In this document: piece after piece, positions 1 through 17,399 of the stretch
Position numbering within the stretch: position 1 is the stretch's first letter
How the letters are laid out: every line of letters starts with the position of its first letter
Source of the DNA: Candidatus Omnitrophota bacterium
GTDB lineage: Bacteria > Omnitrophota > Koll11 > Gygaellales > JAQTUY01
Direction of reading: 5' to 3'
Assembly (NCBI GenBank): GCA_028707105.1
Contig: JAQTUY010000020.1
Span: 1 to 17,399 of the forward strand
Length of the DNA stretch: 17,399 nt
Made by a program: the position numbers and the translations under genes
The notes under the pieces: generated by a model
Database searches by the model: none
What the model was told of the DNA's origin: nothing
The model's input: the letters and a program-made list of their open reading frames with translations, nothing else

Positions 1-640
1 TCCTTCAAGGTCGTGAATAACAATAGGCAGCGTCATAAGGCTGATATTCCCTAAATGCAGGTAGGAATGGATAAAGCCGGTATCGTGAAGATGTCTCATC
101 GCCCAGCCGTATTTTTCTAAGAATACCCGGCTATTACGCTCTGCTCCCGTGCGCTGGTTCCTGCCCATTTCAAACCCTAATACTACAAATCCCAGCCGTT
201 CCCCGTTGAATTGAACGCCCGTAAATTCCCCCCAGCCGATAGGGGCCTTGACTGTCAATTTCCTTGCCAGCGGATCACTGCCGTAAGCGTCGCAGGTCTG
301 CAGGAATTCATTTAAAGCGCTTTCCAGGAACATTGTGCCTTCTGCCGAAGGGTTAACCTTGACCATACCGATCTTATCATCGCCGGGACTATAAGCCATT
401 GTCCTGCGCATCTCACGGGAAAATTCATTGAGCGCGCAGCGCTGATCAAAAACTATACCTTTTATCTGCAGGTGGGTAATACGCTGCCTTCTGGCATCCC
501 TGAAAGGATCCTGCACGAACATCTGTCCTGAGCGGTTATATTTATGGGCGGGTTGGTTACTGCCCAGGATCCTTTTTAGTTCCTCCAGATCCCGGCTGGA
601 AACCGAATTCGCCAGATCCTTATTGATATAAAGAGTAAAA
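1..640 (-). other. Kinase-like domain, running off the window
   Basis: About 210 residues at the low-coordinate edge; the domain continues beyond position 1. A strand pair GWGEFTGVQFNGERLGFVVL and a helix LEKYGWAMRHLHDTG lead to IHSYLHLGN (46-69) and then VIHDLEG (1-12). This is the layout of the catalytic loop and metal-binding motif in kinase-like phosphotransferases (HxDLHxxN, then DxD/DFG-like), with Tyr in the position of the catalytic Asp but the loop His, the Asn and the DLEG Asp present. The stretch at about 240-640 before it is unassigned but in frame. A degenerate kinase is the best guess; the missing C-lobe prevents a firm call. Confidence 0.45.
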
Positions 641-3600
641 GCCCTTTCAGTTCCCTGCGTCTCCTGTTTTTTGCACAATCTATAAGCTTCCTTGAGTGGG
701 ACCTCTTCCTGATCCCGTATCGCGTTACGTTCTTTAGCGTCTGAAGGGGCAACCCGTTTTTTGCCCTCGCCCCAGATACAAGAAGCGTAGAACTGCCAGA
801 CATAGGCAAAAAGCATCAATAAAACATAAAGCCCCATACCGCCGGCGCTCCGGGCAAGTAATATTACCCCGGCTATGACCGGGACTAATAAAAGCAGGAT
901 CATGGGAAGGATCATAACCAGGACGTGCCCGCTGCGGTCATTTAAAACTCCGGGCCTGCGCTCTTTCTTCTGGAGATCATCCTTACCGGCAGCGCGCAGG
1001 GCTTCTTTTAGCTGCAGCTGGATATCATTCTTGCGCGAACCCATAGCAGGGAAAGAATCTATCTGATAAAAGTTATCCCCGATCTTCCTGGACTTGATTA
1101 TCTTTGCCATATCCAGGTTTAAATCTAATATTTTAAGATATTTTTCTATTTCCGGGGTGACTTTATGCGAGGCGCGGGAATGATGAAGCAATTCCAGGTT
1201 ATTTTTCAAATACGATCCGGCCATCCTGATAAACATCCGGTATTGCTCGCCGCTCATCTTATTTTCCAGAAAACACTCCAAGCCTCTTATCGCGTTATCA
1301 ATGACCCGGACCGCAGAGCGATTATGCCCGCGGCAAAGGCATTCCTTGATCACGGGTTTTACAAAAAGGCCGCGGATGGCCTGCCTCCTGGTGTGCTCTG
1401 AGTTACGGGTTACGTTTAAAAAGCTCTGCACGGCCGACGGGCCGGCGCGCATAATAATACTGCTGCCGTATTCTTCGCACTTCATCGGCGTGAGCATCCA
1501 GGCAACAGCCTGTAATTTTCGCGTGCTGCTTTCCTGAAGCATAAATTCCCGGATCTGGCTGAGCTGGCAGGGCGTAAGGCGGGAATCAGCCCCTACCTTG
1601 TCCTGCCCGATAGAGAAATTCCCGAATACTTTATAATCCCAAAGCAGGTCTTTGGCCGGGGAATCCGCCGTGATATGCTCATACCTGGATAATTCCCGTA
1701 AAAACTCCGGGGCGTTCTTGATCCCGGCGATCTGGTTGAGCCAGTATATTACCTCCGCGTCGTCATCTATGGCGATCGTGGATTCCAGGGTAAAGCCGGA
1801 GCGGTTAAAAGAACAGAGGGACGCGTCAAGGTCCGAATAGATCCCGCCCACCAGCAAATAAGCGCGGGAGGGAGAGATCCGCACGCCGGTGTCGCGAAAT
1901 ACCTTGGCAACCAGTGTCGAGGTGCAAGAAACACGGCTAAGATGATGGTCGATCGTACTGGCAATGTGCAGCTGTTCCAGCTCTTCGCTTTCCGGCTTGA
2001 AATGGTCAAACAAACTCATGCTCAGCCGGTTGCGCACAAACTCGGAGGCGCCAGCGATGCCCTGAATAAGCGCCTTGATAGCTGAATCTTCGGAATATAT
2101 GATCAGGTCCTTCTCCTCGATCCCGCAGTTCTTAAAAAGATACCTGGCGCCGGGGCACAACCCGTCCTTGATAAAAGGAAAGACCTCGATATTCTTGCCC
2201 GCGCTTATCTTCTGATCGTGTTCCGCTTTCAGGATTTGGGGAATGGATCCATCCAGATCAGGGTCTTTATGGCCGAAGTAATCGTTTATTTTGTAGTTGC
2301 CTTTCCCCAAAAAAACCCCTTCGTGACATGAAAGGACATTACGCTTGCGTTCGCGCAGGAATTTCTTCAAGGAGCGCGCGTCTTTGACTAAATAAGCGTA
2401 TTTGCCGCTGAAGATACAGTTACGCGCTATAAAAATAACGCTAGCGCATACCAGGCCTGTTATCAACAAAGCCAATAGAACAGGCTGTATCTGCTCAGCC
2501 GGATACATAAAGACCGCCGGCGCAACGGCGCTTAACCCGGCAACAGGAGCCGCCCCCTCTTGCCCGCCGGAAGTTTTTTTGATCCTGGATTTAGTTAAAA
2601 GCAGCCTTAAAAGATAGCTCTTAGACCGGGAGAAGTCATGCACCGTGCAATCAGCTCCCGCGTTGATCAATACTTCTTTTTCGCGCTCGTCATTGATCTT
2701 GCCTATGGCAATGGCGCCGGCCTGTTTTGCCGCCTCGATATCGTGGCGGCCGTCCCCGATCACCACGACTTGATCGCCGTTTAAGGCGCCCTTTATCCTC
2801 CTGATGGCCTCCGGCTTGTTAAAATTCACGAACGCGCCGTCGCCGAAGATACCGTCAAAGTAGCCGGTAAGGCCCGTAGCCTCGACTTCCGCCCTCAGCT
2901 GTTCATGCTCGGTGCCGCTGACCACGAATAACCTGATACCTTTATTACGTAAGGCTATGATCAGGTCTTTTGCTCCGGGCAATAAAGGAGGCTGCTCTTT
3001 CCAATGTTGGGCATCGATATATTTTCTCACCGCGCAAAGAAAGATGCGGCGGTGTTCTTCTATTGTCCGGTTATCTTTAATACCCCTGGATGCGGCCTGC
3101 TCCTGTATCCATTCCAGGTGCCTGGTAAAAGGCGCGCCGGCGGCATTGCGCAAATATTCCCTGACATATCCGGCCTGCTTTTCATCGGGTGTTGCGCCCG
3201 GGTATATCGACGATATTGCCAGATGATACATAAGCTCAAACCAGGGAACCCCGTTGAACAACGTATCATCCCAGTCAAAAATAACTACCCGCGCATCCCT
3301 GGGCCGGTTGCCGGTTGAACATTCAAATTGAATGTAAGGTTTTAAGGCAAAACCCTCGTTCTCTTTCAGGTCAAGGCTGGTTATTAAACTGATCAACTTT
3401 CCTGTGGATACCCCTCTTACACTATTGGAAGATAATAACGATAAGGCCTTAAGCAGCGCCAGGCGGGGCCGGGCTTTGATCACAACGTTGAGCCCGCAAA
3501 CCGGGGATTCTTCAGCCAGGCAAGACAGCTTTTCCATTGCCGCATCCTTGATCTGCCTGGCCCTTTCCCTGGAAAAATTTAACATCCTCCCGATCTCGCT

Positions 3601-6600
3601 TAAGGTCTTGCCTTCTAGGTAATGAAGAAGAACAACCTCCCTTTCCTGCTGCGGTATCTGATCCAAAAGCCCGTCCAGAAAAGAGCTCTGGAACATCTTT
3701 TCGATCTCCACCTGGCGGCTGTCATCCTTTAATAGGTCTTTCCTGGTGATCTGCCCCGGTTCGTTTTCACTACCATGGACTGCTTCGTCGATCGAAAAAG
3801 TAACCGGCCTCTTGCCCAGGATCTTTTTAACCTCATCCGCCTCCATCCCCATAAACCCGGCTATTTCCTCGATCAACGGTTCCTCGCCGAACTTATCTTC
3901 ATACCTGTGGATAAATTTACGTATTTTTCTCTCTAGGTTATTAAAGTATTCCGGGCTCTTAACAGTAGCAGAACGGTTCAGGGCCCTTAGGATCGCCTGT
4001 TTTATCCACCATACGGCATAGGTTGAGAACCTTATTCCCCTGCGGGGGTCGAATTTATTTATTGCGGTGAGCATGCCGATAGAGCCTTCCTGGAATAGAT
4101 CATCAACGTCCATTCCCGGGCTTGCCAGGTACGCGTAGCGCTTCAGGACATCCCAGACCAGACCGGAGTTAGACTTTACGAAGATCTCATGGCTTGCTTT
4201 ATGCAGCGCAGAAAGTTCGTTGCAGACAAGGATACGCGCCAGCAAATTATTTACCTGATACGGAGGGGCTTTTGCTTGCAGATAAGGCATCCAGTTATCC
4301 GCGAATATCCTCTCCGCGAAGCTGAGTCCTGCCAGGTCTTTTAACTGGCAGATCATCCTCTCATAGTCATCATTATTCAGGCAATCTGCCAGCTGGCTGA
4401 TATTCATCCAGCCTCCCTGCACTTTTTGTTTTCCGGCCCAGATATTATTCAGGGCATCGTAGGTCAGGGAACCGCTCAGGGCCTCTTTGAGGTATTGCGC
4501 GCTTAAAGACAGGCTTATCCTGGATAATGAAAGCGGCACAAAAATATTATTGAATAAGAAATGTTCTATTCTGGCGGGCTTACGCGCGAAGAGCCCTCCG
4601 CCGTCTACCAAAACCATCTCTCCCGATTCAACGATCCCGAGATTGCGGCTAAACCAGAAAGCGTCCATAAGAGAATGGTATAACCCGGCTGCCCAGACCC
4701 GGCGCTCGGCGGTAATGCATTGCCTTAAGACCTCCCGGGCCTGTTGCGGCTTTCCTTCTTTTAAATACCTCCGGATGAGTTGTTCGGCAATAGCTGCTTT
4801 CTCCTGGACGATGGCCCGTTTCAAGAAAACTTCTTTCCCGTTTAAATTTAATTTCAGGTCCCTTATTTCAAAATAATCGGCTATAGAGCATCCCAATTTT
4901 TGTTTGATCACAGGAGCGTAATCAGGGATAGTGAAGGTCTTATTATAACTGTTCGCGGCTATAACAGCCAGATCGCGCAGGCCTTCCCTGGGCACCTTTA
5001 CCACACAATCAAGCTCGCTGGTGGAATATACCCGCCAGCACCATCCCTTGGCAAGTTGCGTCAATCTTACTTTAGCCAGCCAGATCTTTACGATATCCTC
5101 CCGGGAATACTCTCTTGCAAGAGGAGTATAGCCGGCCGGGATACTCTCTTCTTTTAATCTTGCTTCGGCTAACTTAGCATCCTCTCTGGTATTGATATTT
5201 AATACCCCTATGGGATCCGAGGTTTTTACGATGCGCAGCCTGCCAATGCGCCATAAAACCCGGGCTAAATAATTGAATATTTTGTTTATCGCGCCGTCCA
5301 AATCCTCCCTGTTCCGTACTCTTTCGGTCTGATAAAGGAATTTGATCAACGGCTCGACAACCAGAAAAAGGATCTGCATCGCCTTGTAGATCTTCCAGTT
5401 TACAGCTACGATCCCCGTCTCTACCTCTCTTATGGAAGAAGGCTGCCGGTTAGCCCAAGTCTGGCTGATGAACCCGGACAGCTGGTTATTCTCATCCCTG
5501 ATAATGCGCACCTTGCCTTCGGGATCATCTTTTTCAGTAGTAAGAATAGTGCACCAGGCAGTTTTTCCGCCGACGGGGTTGTGCGTTTTCTGCAGCTCTC
5601 TTATTATGTTATCGCTGACAATCACAATGTCGGCCGGGGCAAGTATGATATTCCCGCGAAAGCCGCTTAAAAGATGCCGTCCTGCCATGAACCTTTCCAC
5701 GGGTCCGGAAAAACGGCCGTTAAAATAATTACTGCCCATTACCCACTTTACGTCCCCGGGCAGGAAGGCTTTTATTGCCGGAGCGCCGAAGTCCAGGATC
5801 ACTATAGAAGGAATATTGATCTTTCTTGCAACATCGATGAGATATCTGATCAGCGGTTTGCCGTTGACCGGATGTACGGGCTTGGGGAAATTAACCGTGG
5901 AATCAAAACGCACACCTTTGCCCCCGGCAGCTATAATAACCATCCAGGAATTCTTCTTTTCTTTCTTATACGCAGCTGCCTGGTTAATACTGCGGACATA
6001 TGTAAGCGTTAATAAAATAAGCAGGGCCGCGCATAAAATTACTCCGGAGTAATCAAACATGGCTGCCAAAGGCAGGAAGGCAAAGCTGTTCAAGGTTGTT
6101 CCAAATGAAGGACCCTTCTTATTCTCAGGCAGTATGTCCAGCTCGCAGGGGCAGGCCGGAGAGCCAAAATCGCGCATCAAAACATAGATCTCGCCAATCG
6201 AGATCTTGTCGGCTTTATAATATTCAATGCAGGGAGGATGAAATTCTTTTGCGCGAAGTAAATCCCTGAACAAATGTAAATTTATCGTCCCGTCTTCTTT
6301 TTTCCAGGGCAGGAAAGAAAGCTTCCCGCGGCTGATCGTATTCCAATATCCCTTCCAATACTCTCCGTCAAACTCCGGATTGCCGAATAATCTTTCCTTC
6401 TGTTCTTCCTTCTTACCATAGGTAGGGATGATTATTTTTGCCGCCCACAAGAGGAGCGGGTAGAGTTGTTTGCGCGTGCTTCTCCTTGTTAAAACTTCCC
6501 TTGTTTCCTCCTCTTTGCCCACCATCGCGGCAGCCCTAAGGATCTCCTCACGTATCTTTTTAGGCGAGAGAGGATATTTCGCGTTTACATAACGCCTCCT

Positions 6601-9600
6601 GTCCTTCTCGGAAAATTCGTCCGTCCGGTAATATATCTGTCCCGCCCCGGATAAAAACAGGCCGTGGATCCTCGCCCATTCTTTGATCTTTATCCCGAAA
6701 AGCAGGCTTTCATCCGGACTGCCCAGATCCGGATAACCGGCTAAAAGCCCCAGCATTTCCAGCCATTCCCTCTGCGGGGATATTCCGTTATTCTGGGATA
6801 CGATCAGTTCTTCTTTGAATATGCTATAAATTCCCGGGGATGCGATATAAGCATCGATGATCCGATGCACAAAATCATCGGCCTTGGTTTCGTAGTAATC
6901 TTCGGGGTAATAATAGTGCAGGATCTCTTCGGCAATGGTAAGTTCCGCTATCAACGGCGGAGCGCGGCTATGGATGATATGATGCAGCATGATCAGGTTA
7001 ATGGAAGCGCATCCCAGCCTTTCCAAACGGGAAGTTAACTCCACTGATAAACAGGGGTTTTCATTAATGCGCAAATACAGGTCATTCAGGCGCGGGTCGG
7101 AATTTTTCAGGAAACTTATGATCTTTAAGGCGCCGCCTAAACGTTCTTTTAAAGGCGAAGGCAAGTCCTTTCCCTGACAGGACAAATTACCGTTATCGAT
7201 TTTTAAGCTTACCCCGTAAGAAGCATCTTCCCTGGCGTTTTCTAATTCCTGCGCGAATTTCTGGACCATAAACCGCGAGGTATGCAGGCTGGCCGGTTGA
7301 CGCACGCCCTTTAATATGACCATCCCTAAAGGAGGCAAAGTAAGGCTTACGGAGAAGAGGCGGTTGTGCATCGGCTGCATCGCGGCATATACTTTTCCGC
7401 CATTACCTACGTTACTGCCGCCGTAACAGGAGGCATCGCTATTAAAAATCTCCTGCCACTCACCCAGCCAGGACACGCCTATGCGGTAGCCTTTGTGAAG
7501 GACCGGTTTAAAATTAAAGACTACCAGCACAGACTCATCCGGGTTCTCCCCTCTGCGCACATAACTTATAACACTTTTCTCCCAGTCGTTAAAATCTACT
7601 TTTTCAAACCCATTATCCGAAAAATCCCTCTGGTATAAAGCCGGCTCAGAGCGGTATATGCGGTTTAGGTCCCTGACCATATCCTGGATGCCCTTATGTT
7701 GAGGAAAATTTAACAGCGACCAATCTACGCTGGTATCATGGTTCCATTCTTTATACTCCGCGATCTCCCCGCCCATAAAAAGATGTTTTTTACCCGATTC
7801 GGTAAACATAAGCCCTAAAAGCAGGCGTAAATTGGCGAATTTCTGCCAGCGGTCTCCGGGCATCTTCTCCAGCAGCGAGCATTTACCGTGAACGGCTTCG
7901 TCATGAGACAGAGGAAGGACAAAATTCTCGTAGAAGAAAAACCCCGGATATTTATACAACTCTCCATGGTGGAACTGCCTGAATAGAGTATCCTTCTTCA
8001 TATAATCAAGCGTGTGCCTCATCCATCCAATAGACTGTTTCATGGAAAAACCCAACCCGCCCTCGGACACAGGACGCGTAACGCCGTAGTAATGCGAAGA
8101 ATCCTCAGCAATGGTCAAAGCGCCGAAATACTTGCACCGGATAGCTTCGTTCAATTCTTTGATAAAACTGATACCTTCAAGGTTAAGACTATCTCCCCGG
8201 CAATTAGGGATCCACTTTCCTTCTTCACGGTCGTAATTTAAATAAAGCATGCAAGCCACAGCGTCAAGGCGTAATCCGTCAACGTGGTATTTCTCCAACC
8301 AATAAAAGGCATTGCTGATCAAGAAGCTCTTTACTTCGTGGCGCCCGAAATTGAATACGCGCGTGCCCCACTTTTCATGTTTTCCCTGGAAAGGATGTAA
8401 ATGCGAATACAGCTCCGTGCCGTCAAATTCGGCTAATCCGCTGCCATGTTCGGCAAAATGCGCGTATACCACATCCAGGATAACACCTATATTTTTCTGA
8501 TGAAGATAATCGACCAGATACATAAAATCCTGGGGCGACCCATAACGGGAAGTGGGCGCGAAATAATTATTCACCTGGTATCCCCAGGAAGGGTAATAAT
8601 AATGTTCGTTGACCGGCATCAATTCCACGTGGGTAAACCCCATATCCAGAACATATTCGGCAAGCATAGGCGCCACTTCCCGGTAATTCATCCAGCGCCA
8701 CCGGCCATTTTCATAGATCTTGCGCCAGGAACCCAGGTGGACCTCATAGACGGAAATAGGCTGATCCAACGCCTGTTTCTTTTGACGAACGTCCATCCAG
8801 CTGTCATCATGCCAATTATAAGAAAGATCCCAGACAATAGAGGCATTGCGGTCCAGCTCTCCATCTTCCGGGTATTGGCTGGCAAAAGCATACGGGTCGA
8901 CTTTAACGCGCGCGTTTCCATCGTTACCCACCACATAATATTTATAAAAATCTGATTTTTTGGCCTCAGGTATAAAACATCGCCATACGCCTCTGGATTC
9001 AACGTTATGCATAACGTTGCGCTTATGATCCCAATTATTGAAATCGCCGATCACAGAAATACTTTTAGCGTTAGGCGCCCAGACCGAGAAATGCACCCCG
9101 GCAGTCACGCCGTCAATAAATACCGGATGAGCCCCTAATTTTCCGTATACTTCGCAATGCTTTCCCTCCGCAGTGAACAGATGGGAATCGAATTCCGTAA
9201 ATTTTAACCTTTCTAATTCTTCGCGGAGTTTGTCTTCGAAAACCGCCGGGGTTTTAAGCGGAACACCGCAGGCTTCTTTTACCACCACAATGATCTCTTC
9301 TTTAGAAGCGGCGTCCGTGGACATCTCAAAATACAATCCCTTATCCTGCAAGGTAAGATAAGTAGCATAGGCGATAGTCCGCAGGGTCTCATCGTTCTGT
9401 TTCAAGGTTTCTTCCTTGATCCCGGATACGCCGGCCTTGTCCGCGGCTCGCGTAAGGACAACAAACAAGCTTTCCTTGTTCTTGCTTGCGGCCTGATAGG
9501 AGTGATGATTCCAATCGCTCCCCTGGAAGACTATAATGTCTTTGCCGGAAAAAGCGGACTTTAGGACTTTTTCTAAAGCTCTTTTTTCTTCTTCTTTAAG

Positions 9601-12600
9601 ATACCAATAGCAGACTACTTCCAAGAATCTTATCTGCGGACTCTCCCGAAGCACGTTGCCTATTTTTTGAATAAGCCCGGCGATGGATACTCTTTCGCCG
9701 CGGGGTATATCCTGGCCGGAGACCTCTTTCATCTTCTTCTTGTAATTCTCTACTTCCGGCTGGTTCACAAAGTTCATCTTTTTATTGCAGGAGTATACTG
9801 CCGCGAATATCTGCAGGAGATACATATTGAGCATGGTATTGAGGACAAACGAAGCGGGAACATCAAAGCTGACAGTTTCAAATCCTGCCGGGATGTTCTC
9901 CGGCGTGACTACGAAAGTTTTGGGATTAACTGTATCGGATTTACCGCCTAAGGACTCCTGGATCAGCTGGGTTATCCAAGTCTCTAAAGCGTTTACAGAG
10001 CGTTCCTCTAAAAGGACGGCGAAATGCTGCGCTTGGGTGGCGGCTGACTGGTTAGCCTTGTTTACGGCCTGAACGATAAGCTTGTTCCTCAAGACAAGAT
10101 ATTCATCCCAAACCAGCTTTAACCCCGCAATATCCTTATCCATAAGCAACAATAACGGTAGGAGGAATATCAGGGTATGCGGCGCGGTAAACCTGCCGCC
10201 GATATCCGTCCGTCCGTCGATCTGAATAGGTAAGATCCCAATTCCCTGCCAGCCCGCGTTTTCAATCTTGGCTTTATTGGGCAGATCGGCTAACCATAAG
10301 AAATGCTTCCGGTAATCCAGGCCCTGGCTTAAAACCTTCTCTTTCAGCGCCTTTAAGATATCCTGGGTTTCCTTTGTTGTGCCCGACTTGGAAATACCCA
10401 CGATCAAGGTCTGGGACAAGTCCGGCAGGCAAGCTAAAAGCCCGCTCAAGGCGGCCCGGTCCAAGCTATCAATGGTGTAGATCTTAAATCTGTCCTGCCC
10501 TTTCACGACCCCGATCAGGGCTTTAATGGTATTTACTGAACCGCCCATACCGGAAAATATAAAGGTATCCTTATTCTTTACGGCATCTAAACTTAAGAAT
10601 TTATTAAGGGCCTCTTCGACCGCCGGCCAGGAAGGAGGAAGTACCCATCCTAAACGGCTGTCCTGGCCGTCAAAGCCGATCTCGCGGAAAATATTGCCCT
10701 GCCCGATCTGCTCCCTGGACTGCTTGCCGGCAGCCTGCATCAAGCTGCACAGCTCTATCGGAGCGGATACCCCAAGCAGCTCTTTACCTATATTACGCAG
10801 CCGTTCCTGCCTTGATATGTCCGTGACTTCGGTATAGAGGCGGGCGACATTCTCGGTCCCGGATATCCTGATACAAAGCCAATCGCCGGTATCAAAGATC
10901 ACCTTTATGCCGTCCAAAGTGATGATCTCGGATACTTTTTCCTTAACGTCCAGCGCGCGCATCTTCCTGCTTATCGAGAAGTCCTCGAAGCTGGCGTAGG
11001 TCTTCCTATCCAGTTTTACCTGCTCTATCAGTTTAAGGGCCTGGGATTTCAAGTCCTCGTTTAACTCCAAGTTATCCCTTTTATATACGACTGCCTTTCC
11101 GATAATACGCTCGATCTCCTCCTTATAACCGGATAGGCTCAAGCGGCTCTCGGCTGCCATCCACAGGCACATGAGCCCGATGACGATACCGTCATCCCAG
11201 GAGCGCATAAAAGGCCCGACGGCCACGTGGGCCGATTCCTCGCCGGCGACCAGGAATTTTTTGTCTGCGTTGATCGCCTTATCCACAAACCACTTGAATC
11301 CGACCTGGGTTTCCACCAATTCCAGCTCGCAATACTCGCATACCGCGTTGGCAAAATTGGAAGTGGCCACGCTCTTTCCGACAGCCCCCCTGAAGCCCTT
11401 GCGGAAAAAGAAAAAGGCCAGCATGGCGATGACCTCGTTCGCGGATATTTCTTTCCCGCCGAAATCCACCACGCCAAACCTGTCGCCGTCGCCGTCGGTA
11501 GCCAGGCCTAAAGTATGATTATCCCTATTAACGCTTGAAACCAACTCCTGGTTGAATTCTTTTTCCGTAGGATTAGGCGCCCCATTGACCTGGCTAAAAG
11601 CCGGGTCCTGATTTGCGGTGTGGATAAGTTTAACGAAGCTCGATCCCGCTTCCTTTTCGATCTGCCTGTATAACATATCCAAATATTTGACCGCAGTACC
11701 CTGCATCGGGTCAAGAACGATGTTAAAAGGAACGCTTTCCTTGACATACTTGAGTATGGAATCCCAGGCGCCTATTTCTCTTAATTTGGCGATCAGATAC
11801 TTAGAAACATACTTCGAGGCTGCCTCCTTGAAAGGCATCTCTTCGATCAGGCCTTCTTTTTTAGCTATTTTGTAATTAAGATAGCGGTAAGTAACGGCTG
11901 TATTGGCGTAATTGGAAATAAGGTCGGTGGTCTCTTTATCCGCGACGCCGCCGTGATAGGGATAGAATTTGAATCCGTCATCGGTATACCTATTATGAGA
12001 GGCGGTGAAATTGATGGCGGCCTTTAGCTTGCTGTCGGAATTCACCAGGTAGCCGAGTACCGGGCTGGGAGTAGGTTCCTCGATGATTATTTTAACCGGA
12101 ATACCGTTGCCGGATAATATAGAAGCTGTTTCGTGCGCGAATTCCACGTTGCCCTTGCGGGGATCATAACCAATAAGGATCTTGCCTTTCTTGATATGCC
12201 GCCTGTGATACTCCGCGACCCCTTGAGCGGCGCGCCTGACATTAGCCAGGACAAAATCTTTATCCAGTTTTCCCCGCCATCCTGATGTTCCGAAGGCAAT
12301 ATTTACTCCGGTAGAATATAACGCCAACTTCACGGGTTTGGTAAAAACGGCTCTGATAAAATCATCTTCCAATCGAAGGTTTTCCTGGTGGGAGAGGCCT
12401 GAAACAGCGCCCAATTCATGCAGGATAGTTACGGCAAGTTCCGCCTTATTGCTAAGGATGGATTCGTCGAGATAAAGCACGCCTTGATAGACAGTTCCGA
12501 AGAAAAGCTTAAACGGTCCTGCACGCAGCTTACCTTCGCCGGCTAACATCTCTTCCAGTTTAATGATCCATTGCTCCCTGTCAGTATCAATCAAAAATTT

Positions 12601-15600
12601 CTTTATTTTAGCGGCCGCCAGACCGATTAGAGCCGAATCCTCGGTATCACCAAACGATCTTAGCATCCTTATCCTGGGCTGTTCCTGTTCGATCTCACCC
12701 AGGACCTGGGCTTCGGTAAGGGGCGCGCCCGTTTTAGAGCGGGATGTATCTTTAGCAAAACTATTTATTCCGGAAAATTTATACCAGGATTTTTTAGGCC
12801 AAAGCTGAATATGTTCGCCGCTGCCCACAAAAATAACCTCTTTTCGCAGGCCGAGCAATCGGGCCAGATTCTTTCCGATCAGTATTCTTCCCTGTTTATC
12901 TAATTGCGCCTGAAAAGAAAGTCCGTTGAACTTGATCCTTGCTTCTTCTCCAAGAGCGCCGGCCTTTTTATTATAGGCGTCCCTGGAATATATCTCTACG
13001 CTCTTGTTCTTTGTATTGTAATGTAAATAAAGCTCTGTAATCCCCGGCATAGTCTTGACGAACGCCGAAGGGACAATGACGCGGTTTTTTTCGTCCAGCC
13101 GGGCATTATAATGCCCGGAATAGGCGTTTAAAGGTTCTTCTTTCTTAGGTAGCGCGATAGCTTCTTCAAAGATCTCAATCCTGTTCCTGCCTCTATGCTT
13201 AGCCGCGTACATAGCGGTATCAGCTTCTTTTATCAAAGACTGCGCGTCTTTAGCCGCCTCTTTTACCGTATACCATGCTTCTTTCTTGGGCGTAGAGGCG
13301 GCTGCCACTCCCACGCTTACCGTCGCCCTGATGATCTGCGTCTTCTTACCGCCATCAATCTCTATCCTGATCATTGCCTTCTCAACGGCCGTCCTGACGC
13401 TCTCTGCCTTCTCTATCATTTTTGCCTTGCTCATATAAGGCATAAAGACTACAAATTCTTCCCCGCCATACCTTATCAGGGTATCCGTCTCTCTCAGGGC
13501 TCCTTTTATCGCCTCACTGACTGCCTTTAAAACAACATCCCCCACGTCATGTCCGTAAGTATCATTGACTGCTTTAAAATGGTCTATATCGATCATCAAT
13601 AAAAGTAACAGATATTCATGCCTCTTGGCCTTCATTATTTCCAGGGGCAGATGCTTGTCAAGATAGCGGCGATTGTAGGCTCCCGTAAGCGCATCAACAA
13701 GCTTTTCCTCGTTGGCCTGGAGATATTTCTTCTTAAAATGGGAGCACTCTCTTATCAAGTGGGAATTCTCTTTTTTGAGCTTATCCAGGGCTGCCAGCGC
13801 TTCCTCCAGGGACCTGGGCGTTGCGCTTACTAGTTTTTCCCCGGAACCTGATGAACAAATATCTTCCAGGCTAAATTCCAACAGCTCTATTTTGCCGGAC
13901 TTTTTAGCCAGATGGGCTGTCAGCTTACGGCTGCCGACTTCTATATTTTGCGCTCCATACTCGTTAAGCCGGGCCAGCTTTTCGTAGCTAAAAGACGCCT
14001 TGAACATAGACACTAATCCGGCGCTAACGCGTTTTTTGAATTCGCGGTCAGAGGAAAATTTGTGCGTAACAAATTCGTTGGAACTGTTTACCTGCCCTCC
14101 CGCCACAGGGATAATATCCCCCTCCAGCTCCAGGAAATCCCGCATGTAAAAAAGAACGTTGCAGCCGGATATCGCAAGGAGCAGGAACATGGATATGGCC
14201 TCACGGCGGATAGTTTCATTTTGAAGGATATCCCGCAAGCTGAATTCATCGTAATTACTGGCATAGATGACTTCCGCCATCTTTGCCTCCCGGCAGTTAA
14301 GGACCCAGTTAAATGAATATTCAAGGTAAGCGGCTTTCTTAGCTAAAAGATTGGCGAATACATCCTCATAATAAGTCTTGAAAGCGCAATAACCTGCTTC
14401 TCTATTCCACCCCCTGAACATATCCCTGGCCTCGCGGGAATAAACCTCCAGGACAAAATATATCCTCTTATTCTTTGTTTTTGAGGCGTATTCTATGGCG
14501 TCGAAAAATACCCTCTTGATAAGCGAATAATCGTTATTTTTCTGCAGCGCAAAAGCCAGGTCTACCCTGAAGCCGTCGGCGTCAAAATTATCTATCACGT
14601 ATCTGAGGTAGTTGGAATAAGCTTCTTCCCAATAATAAGCCCCCTGCTCTGTCCGGGCGCCCAGGTCCATAAGCAGCTGATCCTGAGCCTCCCTCCTGTT
14701 GTAAATAAAGACCCTGGAGCCGTCCTCCAGATGTAAGACCGCCCCCGGACAATTCTCTTCCTCCAATACCTGCTCATCGCTTTTATCGTTCTGGACCGCT
14801 TTATGCGCGAAGTATTTGTAGTTTTTATTGTTGAGCGAATCCAGGCTTGACCAGGGCACAAAATCATAGATCAATTTTATCTGTCTATCCCGCGCCTTGC
14901 GGGCCACTTTTTTCAGCTGTTCTTCATCTATATATGGATTGAGCACGCCCGGTATGGGGGAGAAATAATTACCCCACTTCTCAGAGTGGACCATATTCTT
15001 CCCTTTATAAATATATGTTTTTTGCTTGGTATGATATCCGATGATCGTAGAGACCCTGTTGGCCCCGGTCTGCAAGCTCAAATACAGATGGCAGGCGTTC
15101 AATGGCTTTGTTTCCAGGATCTGCGTTTCTTTATCAAGCCCCAGCTCTTCCCGCTTCTCTTCCAGATAGGCCTTAAGATCATCGCTGTTATAGGAACAGA
15201 TCTGATCGTAATCCAGGCCATGGACTAACCGGGAGATCCCGGAGGTTTTAAATAAACCCATAAGATACAAAGCGCGGTTAAAAGTAAACTTACCCAGGAG
15301 GTCCACCAGTTTTTCCATGTTCCCGGTGATGGAAGCTCCGTCTACTGCTATACGAGCCTGGCCGGACAATTTTGCTCCGGTATCAAGAGGATTAACGGCC
15401 AGGATCAGGCCCAGGCTGTCATTTATTTCTTTCCTGCTGTTTAAATACTCTTTTTCCAAAGCAAGGTTCTTACGGTGGGGCTGCCCCATGATCTTTCCTA
15501 ATTCGTGAAGCAAGGTAAGGGCAAATTCGGATGGATTTTGGAGAACAGGTTCATCAAGATACAATACATTTTCATATACAGCGCCGCTGATCGATCTAAA

Positions 15601-17399
15601 AGGCCCGGCTCTTAAACGGCCATTATCCGCCAAAAGCTCCTGAAGCTTAACCATCCATTGCGTCCTGCCGGTCGCCGCCAGGAAGGATTTTATTTTTTCC
15701 GACTCCTCGATGGCCTGTTGATATTCGGCCGCGTTCAGCGTCCTGATCTTATCCTTCTGCTGCCCGATATCCGCAGCTACCTGTTTTTCGGTAAGGCGTT
15801 CTCCTGTTTTAGAACGCGCGTTATCCGGAGAACGGCCCTGGTCCGGGTCTATCTCGTTCTCTATCCTTCTTATTGTCTCTCCCAGGCGCAGATGATGTTC
15901 TCTAAGTTCTTTGATCTCCGCCTTCAGATCATCATAACCAACATCTGCCTGGAACAACAACAAATATGCTAATATGAGCCTCTTACGGTTCAGCGCCTTC
16001 CATATTGTATCCCTCTCCCGCTTTACAAGTTCAAGTAAAACCGACCCGGGATATTCAACCGGGATCATAAGTTCAAACCTCGGGCTAGTAGATGTAACAA
16101 TCAGCAAGCTATGCTCGGAATTTTTATGGTCCCGCGGCTGGGTCAAACACTCCAGTTCCCCGGCGACCTCGGGATGATTATAAAGAAATCTCTTCATGAT
16201 CAGGTCGGCCAGCTCATGCGGCCTGCCCAGGACAGTCTCCGCATATTCATGTCTGAAGATAGCCTCATAGGCTACGGCAAGATGCCTGGGGTTAGAACGG
16301 AAAATCTTATCGAGGATCTCACATGCTTCTTTGGATAAATATATCTCCAGCGTGCCGTTCTTTAACCTGGCGTAGACGAATACCTGCGGTAAACCTGCCA
16401 ATACGGGCAAGGCCATAAATATATATTCCCCATTAAAAACTCCGGCATCACCCCTGACAGGCACATTCTCTTTATTTTTATTCCGTAAGTATTCTTCTAT
16501 TATCTGAATATGCTCCAGGCTCAGATTACCATTCAGGCCGCGCAGTGTTTTATCCTCTCCTTCCTGCCGTTCCTGGATGATCTGCCATATCGCTTGTTTT
16601 GCTTCCGGACAAATATAGATGGTCGGCATGATAAAAGCCACCAGAAATTCTGTCATACGCAGAGTAAGCGGCTGGCTGGGAAGATAGGTCTCTAAAATCC
16701 CCTTCCAATCTTGCGCCGTCAACTTATCAACGTTAAGATCGTAGCGCGGATTATCCTGTTGTATCCTCTTTACTAATAACCGGAATAATAAAGGTATCGG
16801 CCGGCCAAAGTAGATCGGCAGGCTCGCTCCATATTTGTTTCCGAGCTCAACCAAGACAGCTCTGACATACCTGGATTCATCATTAACCTGTTTGTTTCCG
16901 GAAAATCTTAAGACTATCCTGGGCGATATGATCAAATATGCCGGCCTGGCAAATTCTCCGTACTGCTCGGCGTAGAAATTGAGGTTGCTTTTATGGAACT
17001 TTCCGGATGGCTTTCTTAACAATACGCTTATTAAACCTGAATAGTGCTTTATTAACCCCCCGCATAGGTAGAGAATTGCGGAAAGCAGAAAAGCATTCCA
17101 GCCGATCATATCAGCCGTAGAAACCGGGACATACCCGGTGCCTGAACCAGCAAGACCGGCCTTATTATTTTTCCGGATATGAGCATATATGTAATAGGCG
17201 ATAGCTGCAACCGCTATGGACGCCGTGATAACCGGATGACTTATGATCTGTTTCCAGATGTCCTGCGGTGACGAGGGCGAGATAAAATGCATCACCAATC
17301 CCCAATACACAACAAGGACCAGGGATATTAAAACCACGCTTGAAAGTATCAAATTGATCGAAGCTTCGCCCTTTGCTCCGGCCTGCCGGTAAGCCTGGC
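1..17399 (-). CDS. Internal part of a giant multidomain protein (polyprotein-like), open at both window edges
   Basis: A single minus-strand reading frame runs through the whole window without a stop: no TTA, CTA or TCA triplet occurs on the plus strand at positions beginning 3k+1. This gives 5,799 consecutive codons. The frame is real coding sequence, because the translation contains, in order, signatures of at least ten known families (GH13-like, GGDEF, MraZ, phosphoglucomutase, glucose-6-phosphate isomerase, branching enzyme, sugar nucleotidyltransferase, sigma-70, HAD, DHH pyrophosphatase) at near full length, joined by linkers and membrane segments in the same frame. The start codon lies above 17399 and the stop below 1, so the protein exceeds 630 kDa. 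No domain shows a frameshift. Giant fused proteins are known from Omnitrophota, which is my inferred source. Whether the product is cleaved is unknown. Confidence 0.97.
772..924 (-). other. Predicted transmembrane hairpin
   Basis: Two clear hydrophobic helices, LVMILPMILLLLVPVIAGVI (about 855-924) and MGLYVLLMLFAYVWQFYASC (about 772-840), are joined by a short ARSAGG turn. Basic residues flank both outer ends (KKERRPG before, GEGKKR after), so both flanks should face the cytoplasm. This is the clearest two-helix membrane element in the window and separates the pyrophosphatase from the last, kinase-like region. Confidence 0.85.
950..2290 (-). other. Family II (DHH) manganese-type inorganic pyrophosphatase domain
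   Basis: This domain would hydrolyse pyrophosphate to two phosphates. It shows the PpaC order of motifs: FGHKDPDLDG (2248-2274; canonical GHxNPDxD), TIDHH (DHH at 1942-1950), a LLVGGIYSDLD strand with metal-binding Asp at 1831-1833, VFGNFSIGQDKV (PpaC DyKeF...GIGQVE), and a C-terminal SRK at 1030-1038 within AMGSRKNDIQLQL, the DHHA2 substrate site. The span from the first motif to SRK is about 415 residues, longer than simple PpaC, so an insertion in the DHHA2 half is likely. The second metal motif between GHxNPD and DHH (normally around LVDHN) is not clear (LIIYSED). Activity is likely but not certain. It would pull the nucleotidyltransferase reaction in the same chain. Confidence 0.85.
2425..2545 (-). 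other. Predicted membrane element before the pyrophosphatase
   Basis: A basic stretch (TKSRIKKTSGG) leads into an Ala/Pro/Gly-rich, moderately hydrophobic part (AAPVAGLSAVAPAVFMY), a polar PAEQ turn and a clear transmembrane segment, PVLLALLITGLVCASVIFIA (about 2430-2490), followed by basic residues. The order basic, short hydrophobic, turn, strong hydrophobic, basic is shared with the element at 5985-6090. A single span or a re-entrant hairpin are both possible. Confidence 0.7.
2640..3300 (-). other. HAD-superfamily phosphatase domain
   Basis: About 220 residues with all four HAD motifs: motif I VIFDWDDTLF with nucleophile and acid/base aspartates (DWDDT at 3262-3276), motif II LFVVSGT, motif III Lys in NKPEAIRRIK, and motif IV VIGDGRHDIEAAKQAGA. 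A helical cap of about 100 residues lies between motifs I and II, which is the subfamily I (phosphoglycolate phosphatase-like) layout. The segment 3310-3480 before it is an unassigned linker. The substrate is not readable; a sugar or nucleoside phosphate is a reasonable guess given the neighbours. Confidence 0.92.
3480..4290 (-). other. Sigma-70 family domain with regions 2, 3 and 4
   Basis: About 265 residues carry a near-complete sigma factor. Region 2 has DVDDLFQEGSIGMLTAINKF, then DPRRGIRFST and YAVWWIKQAILRAL, the core-binding, melting and -10-recognition helices (about 3900-4120). Region 3 follows (EEPLIEEIAGFMGMEADEVK, about 3770-3850). Region 4 has LLDQIPQQEREVVLLHYLEG and the helix-turn-helix LSEIGRMLNFSRERARQIKD, the -35 element reader (about 3480-3660). 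The conserved region 4.2 ending SRERxRQI is intact. Region 1.1 is absent, as in alternative or group 2/3 sigmas. It is in frame inside the giant protein, between a kinase-like domain and a HAD phosphatase. How it could reach RNA polymerase depends on release from the chain. Confidence 0.93.
4500..5115 (-). other. Protein-kinase-like fold, probably degenerate
   Basis: About 205 residues resemble the kinase/aminoglycoside-phosphotransferase fold. After a strand WRVYSTSELD comes CVVKVPREG, whose Lys (4996-4998) fits the ATP-anchoring lysine of strand 3. A helical C-lobe with AERRVWAAGLYHSLMDAFWF follows, then RNLGIVESGEMVLVDGGGL, which has the layout N...G......LvDxG of atypical kinases, with Asp at 4603-4605 in the metal-binding position. 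No HxD catalytic aspartate is obvious. The region after it (4290-4500) is a helical linker to the sigma domain. A pseudokinase or an unusual small-molecule kinase are both possible; confidence in the fold is moderate. Confidence 0.5.
5161..5946 (-). other. Sugar-1-phosphate nucleotidyltransferase domain (GlmU N-terminal-like)
   Basis: This domain would transfer a nucleotide from NTP to a sugar-1-phosphate, releasing pyrophosphate. About 260 residues hold the Rossmann-like nucleotidyltransferase pattern: IIAAGGKGVRF, the Gly-rich NTP loop, then PKPVHPVNGKPLIRYLID (the PKxxxPxxGKPxI signature, very close to GlmU), ILAPADIVIVSD with a probable metal-binding Asp at 5629-5631, EGKVRIIRDENN (as in GlmU EYGRIVRDENG), a VETGIVAV strand, and the closing VLNINTREDAKLAEA. 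The GlmU acetyltransferase (hexapeptide) half is absent; a kinase-like domain follows instead. The base and sugar specificity cannot be read. Glucose-1-phosphate made by the mutase domain, or N-acetylglucosamine-1-phosphate, are the two candidates. Confidence 0.87.
5985..6090 (-). other. Predicted membrane element before the nucleotidyltransferase (one segment or a tight hairpin)
   Basis: A strongly hydrophobic stretch, GVILCAALLILLTLTYV (about 5988-6040), follows a shorter one (FAFLPLAAMF) with a DYSG turn between. Lys residues lie on both sides (ENKKGPS before, YKKEKKNSW after). With positive charge on both sides, a short hairpin that keeps both flanks in the cytoplasm is as likely as a single span. 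It marks the boundary between the glycogen block and the nucleotidyltransferase/sigma block. Confidence 0.7.
6091..7309 (-). other. Unrecognised, mainly helical region between branching enzyme and membrane element
   Basis: About 400 residues with no family I recognise. The part at 6840-7260 looks helical (LERLGCASINLIMLHHIIHS, AEEILHYYYPEDYYET). The middle (6400-6780) is Lys/Arg/Glu-rich with an LSPKKIREEI helix. The last part (6091-6240) contains four cysteines within about 35 residues (C at HPPCIEYY, then SPACPCELD), too irregular to call a zinc site. It is in frame with the branching enzyme and with the membrane element that follows. It could be a GlgB-associated accessory domain or a scaffold. 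Confidence 0.5.
7310..9270 (-). other. 1,4-alpha-glucan branching enzyme domain (GlgB-like, CBM48 plus GH13)
   Basis: This domain would cut alpha-1,4-glucan and reattach the piece by an alpha-1,6 bond. About 650 residues, close to normal GlgB length. It opens with the GlgB N-terminal pattern KHCEVYGKLGAHPV and a CBM48 module (GVHFSVWAPNAKSISVIGDF), then YEVHLGSW (8725-8748), NNYFAPTSRYGSPQDFM and the GH13 catalytic regions: ILDVVYAHF (region I), DGLRLDAVA with nucleophile Asp at 8263-8265, TIAEDS with acid/base Glu at 8104-8106 and LPLSHDEAVHGK with Asp at 7900-7902. FMGGEIAEYKEW and the C-terminal all-beta domain ending SLTLPPLGMVIL complete it. It is closer to GlgB than to amylases. Region I has VVYA where most GlgB have WVP followed by a small residue, the only odd spot. 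Confidence 0.97.
9290..10720 (-). other. Glucose-6-phosphate isomerase domain (PGI, two SIS subdomains)
   Basis: This domain would interconvert glucose-6-phosphate and fructose-6-phosphate. About 475 residues cover the normal two-lobed enzyme. Visible signatures are FSGMGGSVNTIK (phosphate loop of the first SIS lobe), GISKSGTTKET (10366-10398, the best-known PGI stretch), DIGGRFTAPHT around 10174-10206, QESLGGK (9940-9960) with the glutamate expected to be catalytic, GSDWNHHSYQAA, and NFVNQPEVENYKKK (9736-9771), which corresponds to the second PGI signature with Asn-Gln for the usual Asp-Gln. All expected blocks are in order. The product of the mutase domain just upstream is its substrate, so the two steps are covalently coupled. 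The following domain is a branching enzyme. Confidence 0.92.
10760..12330 (-). other. Phosphoglucomutase/phosphomannomutase domain (alpha-D-phosphohexomutase family)
   Basis: This domain would interconvert glucose-1-phosphate and glucose-6-phosphate through a phosphoserine. About 520 residues, a normal full length, hold all four family signatures in order: FGTSGWRG near the start; the catalytic serine loop TASHNRYTDDGFK (Ser at 11998-12000; Arg where most members have Pro); the metal-binding loop DGDGDR (11479-11496); the sugar-specificity loop GEESAH (11227-11244; usually GEESGH); and the phosphate-binding loop RISGTEN (10849-10869). A DDGI segment after the sugar loop also fits. Mutase activity on glucose phosphates fits the isomerase and branching-enzyme neighbours; mannose phosphates remain possible. 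It follows HELG module copy 2 and is joined to the isomerase by a short linker. Confidence 0.94.
12361..12744 (-). repeat. HELG module, copy 2 (degenerate metzincin-like repeat)
   Basis: Second copy of the module at 15445-15816, about 128 residues. It has the same order: RSKTG and LTEAQV linker, a helical region, QWIIKLEEMLAGEGKLRAGPF, VLYLDESIL, then HELGAVSGLSH at 12388-12420. The second zinc-ligand position is Ala here (Lys in copy 1), so both copies lack the same ligand while keeping His-Glu, the Gly and the last His. The module lies between MraZ and phosphoglucomutase, again directly before a carbohydrate-active block. The N-terminal half is much less conserved between copies than the LRAGPF-to-HELG core, which suggests that the core is the functional part. 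Confidence 0.78.
12781..13122 (-). other. MraZ-like domain (two AbrB-type DNA-binding halves)
   Basis: About 114 residues match MraZ, the transcription regulator normally encoded alone at the head of the division and cell-wall (dcw) cluster. The first half has NARLDEKNRVIVPSAF, corresponding to the H/YxxxLDxKGRxxIPxxF signature; the second half has QAQLDKQGRILIGKNL followed by LARLLGLRKEVIFVGSGEHI and a terminal W...W pattern. The DxKGR-type motif is therefore present twice, as expected for the double swapped-hairpin fold. MraZ forms ring-shaped oligomers that bind DNA repeats. Here it is fused after the cyclase and before HELG module copy 2. The first motif has Asn in place of Gly (DEKNR), a minor deviation. 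DNA binding is inferred, not shown. Confidence 0.88.
13155..13710 (-). other. GGDEF diguanylate cyclase domain, active site and I-site intact
   Basis: This domain would condense two GTP into cyclic di-GMP. It begins with the canonical DALTGAYNRRYLD, followed by LLLMIDIDHFKAVNDTYGHD (metal-binding Asp and nucleotide-binding residues), the signature GGEEF at 13453-13467, a VSVGVAA strand and the closing ADTAMYAAKHRGRNRI. An RxxD product-inhibition site (RETD, 13483-13494) lies exactly five residues before GGEEF, so feedback control by c-di-GMP is expected. At about 185 residues, somewhat longer than usual, it carries a small insertion near 13321-13340. All catalytic residues I can place are present, so I predict an active enzyme inside the giant chain. 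Immediately downstream is an MraZ domain. Confidence 0.93.
13711..14087 (-). other. Linker ending in a coiled coil before the GGDEF domain
   Basis: About 125 residues join the GH13-like barrel to the cyclase. The first part has a few strand-like stretches that could be the amylase C-terminal beta domain. The last part (about 13713-13812) is a heptad-rich charged helix (SLEEALAALDKLKKENSHLI and onward), ending next to DALTG. Such signalling helices usually dimerise diguanylate cyclases, and dimerisation is required for their activity. No sensory PAS, GAF or HAMP domain is recognisable in front of it. Confidence 0.6.
14088..15370 (-). other. GH13 (alpha-amylase family)-like catalytic barrel, divergent
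   Basis: A domain of about 430 residues with the order of GH13 conserved regions. An early strand/helix part (TGNMEKLVDLLG, ALYLMGLF) is followed by FSPIPGVLNPYI, then region I IYDFVPWSS (14845-14865), region II GFRVDLA with the putative nucleophile Asp at 14560-14562, region III YFVLEVYS with the acid/base Glu at 14446-14448, and region IV ASNYDEF with Asp at 14248-14250. The Asp/Glu/Asp triad and the region II Arg are kept. The NH of region I is replaced by WS and the His of region IV by Tyr, both unusual for an active amylase. Activity on alpha-glucan is therefore plausible but uncertain. It sits between HELG module copy 1 and the diguanylate cyclase. Confidence 0.7.
15445..15816 (-). repeat. 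HELG module, copy 1 (degenerate metzincin-like repeat)
   Basis: A roughly 124-residue module found twice in this protein; the other copy is at 12361-12744. It starts with a polar linker (RSKTG..LTE.QV), continues with a helical part and QW..KL.E.LA..G.LRAGPF, then a strand VLYLDE, and ends with HELGKIMGQPH at 15475-15507. The two copies agree at about 40 of 71 residues over the C-terminal core, counted by eye. The motif has the layout of the metzincin zinc site (HExxHxxGxxH), but the second histidine is Lys, so full zinc coordination is unlikely. This copy lies directly before the GH13-like barrel. A peptidase-derived spacer or structural adaptor is the simplest reading; a family name is not assigned. 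Confidence 0.75.
15817..17040 (-). other. Unrecognised region, partly helical, with an HEYAE...GRPH motif
   Basis: About 400 residues between the first membrane cluster and the first HELG module. I do not recognise a family. The first half is a mixed alpha/beta-looking segment. Around 16216-16251 is HEYAETVLGRPH, preceded by a strand-like LEIYLS and an NP-containing helix. This order resembles the HELG modules downstream (strand ending in YLDE, N/P helix, HELG...H), with one residue more between the histidines, so it may be a third, very divergent zincin-like fold. The C-terminal part (about 15840-15930) is charged and probably coiled coil, leading into the RSKTG linker of the first repeat. 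Confidence 0.45.
17041..17362 (-). other. Three predicted transmembrane segments near the N-terminal edge of the window
   Basis: Three long hydrophobic stretches are visible. The first covers about 17283-17362 (ILSSVVLISLVLVVYWGLVM at its core), the second about 17175-17250 (VITASIAVAAIAYYIYAHI), the third about 17050-17120 (WNAFLLSAILYLCGGLI). Segments two and three are separated by a basic patch (RKNNK) and a Gly/Ser-rich stretch (AGLAGSGTGYVPVS). A basic patch (RKPSGKFHK) follows segment three, which by the positive-inside rule places the following domains in the cytoplasm. This cluster would anchor the chain to the membrane. The exact ends are by eye. Confidence 0.8.

Follow-up and report, generated by a model that had tools for sequence, protein, structure and literature searches.

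A giant Omnitrophota gene fragment with sugar enzymes, gene-control domains and a recurrent spacer on one open frame

The window, that is, the whole stretch of DNA analysed here (17,399 bases, one contig of a Candidatus Omnitrophota bacterium), is an internal fragment of a single giant gene, both ends of which are missing. Its minus strand encodes about ten metabolic and regulatory domains in a single frame, together with two copies of a spacer that recurs in other giant frames of the phylum. The reading that we favor, with a confidence a little short of even, is that its product functions as a single multi-enzyme chain, exported or woven through a membrane, which combines sugar enzymes with gene-control domains and has spacers between some of them.

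An open frame without visible ends

A single minus-strand frame of 5,799 codons covers positions 1..17397 with 0 stops upon translation of the whole window; its first codon ends at 17397, its last codon is 1-3, and it is open at both contig edges. An earlier interpretation made from the letters alone (hereafter, the sequence-only reading) had reported this uninterrupted frame with neither gene end in sight, and the translation and the ORF listing bear it out in both respects. The remaining five frames of the window contain 172-366 stops each. That a stop-free run of this length has a negligible probability by chance also stands, while the earlier figure of 10^-121 is the value for uniform codons; the probability is ~10^-138 with the base composition of the window (a stop probability of 0.053) and ~10^-159 when the stop rate is taken from the other two minus-strand frames (711/11,596). 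GC3 ranges between 0.52 and 0.65 across 12/12 bins of 500 codons (the last bin being shorter) and GC by codon position is even throughout; therefore, no bin appears non-coding. The frame spans 17.4 kb in the window and is open on both sides (the published giant-ORF criterion is a single frame >20 kb), and the interpretation of a giant gene is further supported by frames of the same make-up that fill whole contigs in other genomes (below). That the frame is real and part of a giant gene is, in our judgment, close to certain.

Domain content of the window

About ten families had been proposed to follow each other in this frame. Searching domain by domain with Pfam and NCBIfam profiles, as had been suggested, places families in the same frame and order: Pfam confirms most of them (GGDEF, MraZ, phosphoglucomutase [PGM] domains I-IV, CBM48/GH13/amylase-C of the branching enzyme GlgB, NTP_transf_3, sigma70 r2/r3/r4, and HAD), and the amylase-like, PGI-like and DHH-like assignments rest on weaker comparisons. 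The full order is amylase-like, GGDEF, MraZ, PGM, PGI-like, GlgB, nucleotidyltransferase, sigma-70 regions 2-4, HAD and DHH-like, plus two spacers. The features of the window are:

17050..17364, minus strand: hydrophobic cluster of about three membrane segments on the visible N-terminal side (hydropathy only)
15442..15825, minus strand: spacer copy 1 (aa 525-652), HELGKIMGQPH, predicted zincin-like (self-repeat, 48% identity; fold modelled on copy 2)
13912..15420, minus strand: amylase-like domain (aa 660-1162), a weakly founded name (weak comparisons)
13180..13698, minus strand: GGDEF diguanylate cyclase domain with GGEEF and RxxD site (PF00990, E 2.9e-42)
12751..13125, minus strand: MraZ-like domain (aa 1425-1549; PF02381, E 3.9e-13; NF001477, E 3.3e-12, under cut-off)
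12352..12750, minus strand: spacer copy 2 (aa 1550-1682), HELGAVSGLSH (self-repeat; AlphaFold2 model)
10768..12315, minus strand: phosphoglucomutase/phosphomannomutase, four domains (aa 1695-2210; Pfam, PDB, giant-borne PGM of G164)
9286..10683, minus strand: glucose-6-phosphate isomerase (PGI)-like domain (44% identity to P0002; 1zzg, E 1.8e-6, N-terminal half; below NCBIfam cut-offs)
7279..9201, minus strand: GlgB 1,4-alpha-glucan branching enzyme, complete (aa 2733-3373; NF003811, 823.8 bits vs. a cut-off of 741; 8zqa, E 1.6e-193)
5986..6042, minus strand: predicted membrane segment (hydropathy)
5554..5940, minus strand: MobA-like nucleotidyltransferase domain (PF12804, E 5.1e-8)
3526..4179, minus strand: sigma-70 regions 2, 3 and 4 (Pfam; SigA1 9dvs, E 6.9e-31)
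2716..3291, minus strand: HAD-like hydrolase with DxDxT motif (PF00702, E 1.1e-19)
2425..2481, minus strand: predicted membrane segment (hydropathy)
1831..2280, minus strand: DHH/Mn-pyrophosphatase-like domain, weak (4rpa, E 7e-4)
775..912, minus strand: predicted membrane hairpin (hydropathy)

Among the best 25 of 29-69 NCBIfam families considered per window piece, the listed equivalog matches of the GGDEF, PGM, MraZ, PGI and sigma domains are under their cut-offs; the cut-offs are passed by general models of GGDEF and sigma-70. For the amylase-like region, neither PDB sequences nor Pfam gave a match; it shows weak similarity to the catalytic part of the window's own GlgB (E 0.004), 41% identity to part of a giant frame in genome G110, and 23% to a smaller chain in G198. 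PGM matches PDB 1tuo (E 1.7e-33) and has the active-site loops TASHN, DGDGDR, GEES and SGTE. These loops, the GH13 motifs, GGEEF, RxxD and DxDxT were read on the sequence with what we take to be their usual meanings. No adhesion-type domains are found among the window's Pfam matches. Hydropathy gives 11 segments in 8 clusters, some of them inside known soluble domains. By eye, positions 1-720 (aa 5560-5799) appear kinase-like or phosphotransferase-like (HxxxHxGN); the usual catalytic Asp is not apparent there. The unusual mixture of metabolism and regulation that had drawn attention to this DNA is real and recurs in relatives.

Giant-borne enzyme lineages

GlgB was matched in 237 of 384 Omnitrophota-phylum genomes. 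Giant frames hold five of the listed full-length matches (G110, G189, G198, G201 and G314), and the window copy has its two highest-scoring matches (58% and 57% identity) in giant frames. A tree was built from 45 rows: 6 giant, 16 from other bacteria, and 23 free-standing Omnitrophota rows from the best-matching loci (2/25 were dropped for stops or shortness). In it, 6/6 giant-borne copies form one clade with support 100/100, in agreement with an earlier tree of 17 rows that groups 4/4 giant-borne copies together. That is, the window copy shares the complete domain set, the four catalytic motifs and an equivalog score above cut-off with branching enzymes at large, but differs from ordinary GlgB in being embedded in a giant chain and in belonging to a separate giant-borne clade.

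The four GH13 catalytic motifs are present in 6/6 giant GlgBs, whose end branches measure ~0.5-1.2 changes per site; in the window they carry small substitutions (DVVYAHF, DGLRLDAV, AEDS and LSHDE). The 39 non-giant rows share 106 invariant columns, of which the giant copies keep 93 (the window, the lowest), 96, 99, 101, 101 and 103, compared to at least 95.5% (median 99%) of invariant columns kept when each of the 39 non-giant rows is left out in turn. Judging from these alignments, constraint on the giant GlgBs is real but relaxed, and we consider it probable that the enzyme domains are mostly functional. G110, G201 and G314 show no second strong GlgB copy among the listed matches (the MAGs being incomplete), and G198 has a free-standing GlgB, with one stop inside, besides its giant-clade copy.

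By the same kind of comparison, PGM shows a giant-specific pattern similar to that of GlgB. In a search of 55 genomes (51 match), the window PGM is closest to the copy in a giant frame of G164 (51% identity, 572.6 bits). Two partial matches come next, at 180.5 bits (frame of 826 codons) and 169.4 bits (1,575 codons), and among frames of ordinary size the top score is 160.7 bits (G187:C11, 498 codons). The possibility that giants are the sole copy of essential genes is rejected for enolase and guanylate kinase, each of which occurs free-standing in 37/41 of the genomes with a spacer (one enolase being partial). Some giant frames carry additional, more diverged copies of enolase or guanylate kinase, which we regard as extras because most spacer genomes keep the free-standing ones. 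In G164 both PGI matches sit in giant frames (again, the MAGs are incomplete).

The spacer domain

The spacer is ~130 aa long and is present in 41/384 genomes of the phylum, with 61/61 listed matches hosted by open frames of at least 1,506 codons. It is carried by the giant relatives P0002 and P0003, both named Candidatus Omnitrophota, and by the shorter fragments P0004 (also named Candidatus Omnitrophota) and P0005, with PRPP-synthetase-like and guanylate kinase parts; a search in viral contigs gave no match. The names of P0002-P0004 support an Omnitrophota origin for the window. P0003, a partial protein of 3,653 aa, has in addition two twin-arginine-like signals and three KPWLV motifs (0.00 expected).

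The AlphaFold2 model of copy 2 (pLDDT 90) has no Foldseek match in the PDB at E<=0.001. The spacer is predicted to be zincin-like and is compared here with zincin metallopeptidases (deuterolysin 1eb6, Grifola peptidase 1g12 and selecase 4qhf), from which it differs in lacking HExxH: the fifth position is never His in 38/38 scorable copies (41 distinct copies, 3 not scorable; L086 is incomplete, and L087, L098 and L108 were read by eye). Because this second zinc His is absent, we infer that the spacers are structural joints, not peptidases. A further region of the window, 16138-16497 (aa 301-420), has a HEYAE...H pattern and a weak likeness to the spacer (E 0.41), and is possibly another degenerate zincin.

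Giant relatives in other genomes

Several frames in other genomes exceed the window in length. The whole of contig G164:C6 (52,332 bases, no N) is one frame of 17,444 codons; G201:C3 holds a frame of 20,296 codons (no N) with a stop at its end, and G157:C8 one of 22,400 codons (no N) with the start side visible. The G164 gene probably continues from C6 into C56, also one frame, since C6 ends within PGI (profile 1-180) and C56 begins with PGI 178-486. G164:C6 contains PGM, UDPGP, glycogen synthase, PGI, PPDK_N, GNAT, M48 and UPF0489, and the order PGM then PGI-like is common to the window and G164.

The giant frame of G110:C2 is flanked on both sides by ordinary-sized ORFs. Its visible part has glycogen synthase, GlgB, GH77, Rpe, PPDK_N, iPGM and enolase as sugar-enzyme domains, next to GGDEF, methyltransferases, several peptidases, beta-propellers, LuxR-type and sigma70 r4 domains (Pfam content from three scans, best 25 of 43-46 families each). 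One giant frame of G189:C32 (L211) combines GlgB, two sigma-54 activator AAA+ modules, a histidine phosphatase and HD. The amylase-like domain precedes GlgB in 3/6 giant GlgB chains (the window, G110 and G198), and the other three (G189, G201 and G314) have no match to the amylase-like part. A scan of genome contigs was dominated by GGDEF: the listed matches are GGDEF-sized, and two Omnitrophota loci among them, L015 and L024, hold ordinary-sized ORFs.

Readable starts, smaller carriers and probable export

Three spacer-bearing giants (G300:C79, G360:C47 and G157:C8) have a readable start. They share ~75-125 residues, a hydrophobic segment ending in QISWAFNYN, and then Peptidase_C39 (35.1, 23.8 and 31.7 bits vs. 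a Pfam cut-off of 22) with Cys and His conserved. Upstream of the G300 giant lies, by eye, a type II secretion/pseudopilin-like gene cluster. A second, smaller family of four carriers has a Sec-type signal (by eye) and a conserved N-terminal domain of ~300 residues.

L213:16847-18346: shared giant start, signal-like segment with QISWAFNYN and C39
L235:4183-5682: shared giant start, as above
L241:5695-7194: shared giant start, as above
L212:2453-14551: carrier frame, Sec-like signal and shared N-domain
L218:3439-9519: carrier frame, as above
L221:1-8955: carrier frame, as above
L223:8218-15000: carrier frame, as above

Two of the carriers are complete. G198:C23 (4,033 aa, with ORFs on both sides) has the amylase-like domain, a giant-clade GlgB, two glycogen synthases and GH77, and G117:C83 (2,027 aa) has UDPGP, PFK and PGI. 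G117:C80 (2,985/2,991 codons read) contains GAPDH, PGK, enolase and aldolase, the active-site motifs of the first three looking intact by eye, and G130:C11 (2,261/2,281 codons read) contains TIM, aldolase and enolase. The carrier N-domain, scored in only the best six candidates per genome, occurs in 136/384 genomes, in frames of 332-6,160 codons among the listed matches. It is found in 29/41 spacer genomes (Fisher p 1e-6, kinship ignored), but is missing from the five whose spacer matches score highest and which, judged by this score, stand nearest to the window.

Taken at the level of these signals, export is likely for the wider system. For the window's own gene, neither end of which is visible, export would follow by analogy. 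Microscopy of a predatory Omnitrophota bacterium describes open cytoplasmic contact with victims (PMC13153191), and such contact could, in a link that we draw ourselves, supply exported enzymes with substrate. The idea that exported glycolysis feeds ATP/ADP translocases was rejected: the translocase PF03219 is found in 48/384 genomes, none of which is among the 136 carrier or the 41 spacer genomes, a split that is probably class-level.

Proposed function and alternative explanations

Under the favored reading of one exported or membrane-woven multi-enzyme chain, the gene would be made as one protein, in which the PGM, PGI-like, GlgB and amylase-like domains would jointly process glucose-phosphate and alpha-glucan, proximity taking the place of free diffusion, with spacers serving as joints between some domains. 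The chain may enter the membrane or leave the cytoplasm, because a signal-like segment opens each of the three readable giants and each of the four smaller kin. A cytoplasm would be required for the gene-control domains to act; for an exported chain, this could be the cytoplasm of an attacked cell. Going further, complete and competent glycolytic and alpha-glucan enzymes, sigma factors and regulators on signal-bearing carriers and on giant chains might act outside their own cytoplasm, most plausibly in attacked cells, and redirect the sugar metabolism and gene expression of the prey, a scenario that we consider distinctly unlikely. Against export in general, it is not obvious where enzymes that depend on ATP, GTP or sugar phosphates would find these substrates outside a cytoplasm. 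If all enzyme domains were instead tethered by membrane hairpins to the cytoplasmic face of the inner membrane, substrates and cofactors, which are cytoplasmic, would be at hand, and 82 membrane clusters examined in giants are indeed flanked on either side by positive charge (z 4.9 and 5.5 vs. background). However, single membrane segments are mixed (27 in-going, 25 out-going, 5 ties) and such a mixture also yields two positive flanks, so the topology is as would be expected for a chain stitched through the membrane or for a mixture of hairpins; in addition, the readable starts carry signal-like segments, and we find this cytoplasmic arrangement quite improbable.

Alternatively, the giant chain might be a polyprotein: once made, it would be cut by a peptidase, either part of the chain or separate from it, releasing sigma factor, MraZ and enzymes as free proteins; this we regard as less likely than not. 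DNA-binding domains are hard to use within a long chain, Peptidase_C39 with its kept Cys and His lies near the start of the three readable giants, and other giants contain M48, S8, M28 and M54 peptidase domains. The motif DxAM, possibly a cleavage or hinge site, is repeated in the smaller carriers, mostly at domain borders (6, 4, 2 and 3 vs. 0.55, 0.20, 0.25 and 0.75 expected in L221, that is G117:C80, in L218, that is G117:C83, in L223 and in L212), but its enrichment is unclear in the largest giants (observed/expected: G110 3/3.15, G164 1/1.50, G201 4/1.85, window 2/0.45). Cutting by signal peptidase in particular is unsupported, with 10 candidate sites vs. 14 in reversed sequence (lipobox, 3 vs. 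1), although single convincing sites of this kind exist; the spacer, lacking its second zinc His, offers no ready peptidase, neither defined cleavage sites nor an own processing protease were seen in the window, and we know of no cleavage product. It is also conceivable that giant frames gather inserted, non-functional genes that survive only by keeping the frame open, given that giant enzyme copies sit on long branches, have lost some invariant sites and, for enolase and guanylate kinase, lie beside free-standing versions. The catalytic motifs of 6/6 giant GlgBs within one clade, despite end branches of the length given above, and the intact PGM loops, GGEEF and HAD motifs speak against such decay, which we hold to be very improbable. 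Finally, an assembly or recoding artefact that fused separate genes could be suspected in a contig that is one frame end to end, and misassembly had been named as what would overturn the sequence-only reading. It is very unlikely because the spacer, the giant-borne GlgB and the giant-borne PGM are found again in other genomes; stops are frequent in the other five frames, and other assemblies contain architectures of this kind, in some cases with neighbour ORFs on both sides (G198:C23), leaving next to no room for an artefact.

Relation to known systems and significance

Giant Omnitrophota ORFs are already known. Those of >20 kb are described as having membrane helices and sparse domain annotation, which in some cases is adhesion-like (discoidin, laminin G, dockerin) (Seymour et al. 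2023, PMC10066038). The window resembles them in phylum, in several predicted membrane segments and in a long frame (17.4 kb, open at both edges), but differs in its roughly ten domains of metabolism and regulation, in the spacer it shares with relatives and in the giant-borne lineages of its enzymes. The same source gives a protein of 39,678 aa in Ca. Velamenicoccus archaeovorus with many membrane helices, a proposed outer coat linked to predation (PMC10066038), which by this description resembles the window as a giant Omnitrophota protein. Giant genes of related phyla have been read as encoding surface weapons or cellulosome-like structures (PMC12057145), and Omnitrophota are among the bacterial phyla rich in proteins >5,000 aa, those being without COG assignment there (PMC11573180). 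NRPS/PKS megasynthases likewise have many catalytic domains on one very long chain; unlike them, the window shows no adenylation, ketosynthase or carrier domains among its Pfam matches. In the literature searched, with subscription papers and preprints outside its scope, no description was found of spacer-linked metabolic giants or of exported glycolytic carriers; that is, the giants themselves are known, and their metabolic, spacer-linked architecture was not found described there.

Few predicted proteins from any source are as long as the giants of Omnitrophota, for which the accounts consulted stress adhesion and few recognisable domains. The cargo of such proteins is now identified as sugar-phosphate and alpha-glucan enzymes plus regulators, in giant-borne lineages with their motifs kept and with a recognisable spacer, which makes the function of the giants experimentally testable. 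If export holds true, these bacteria would run metabolism outside the producing cell.
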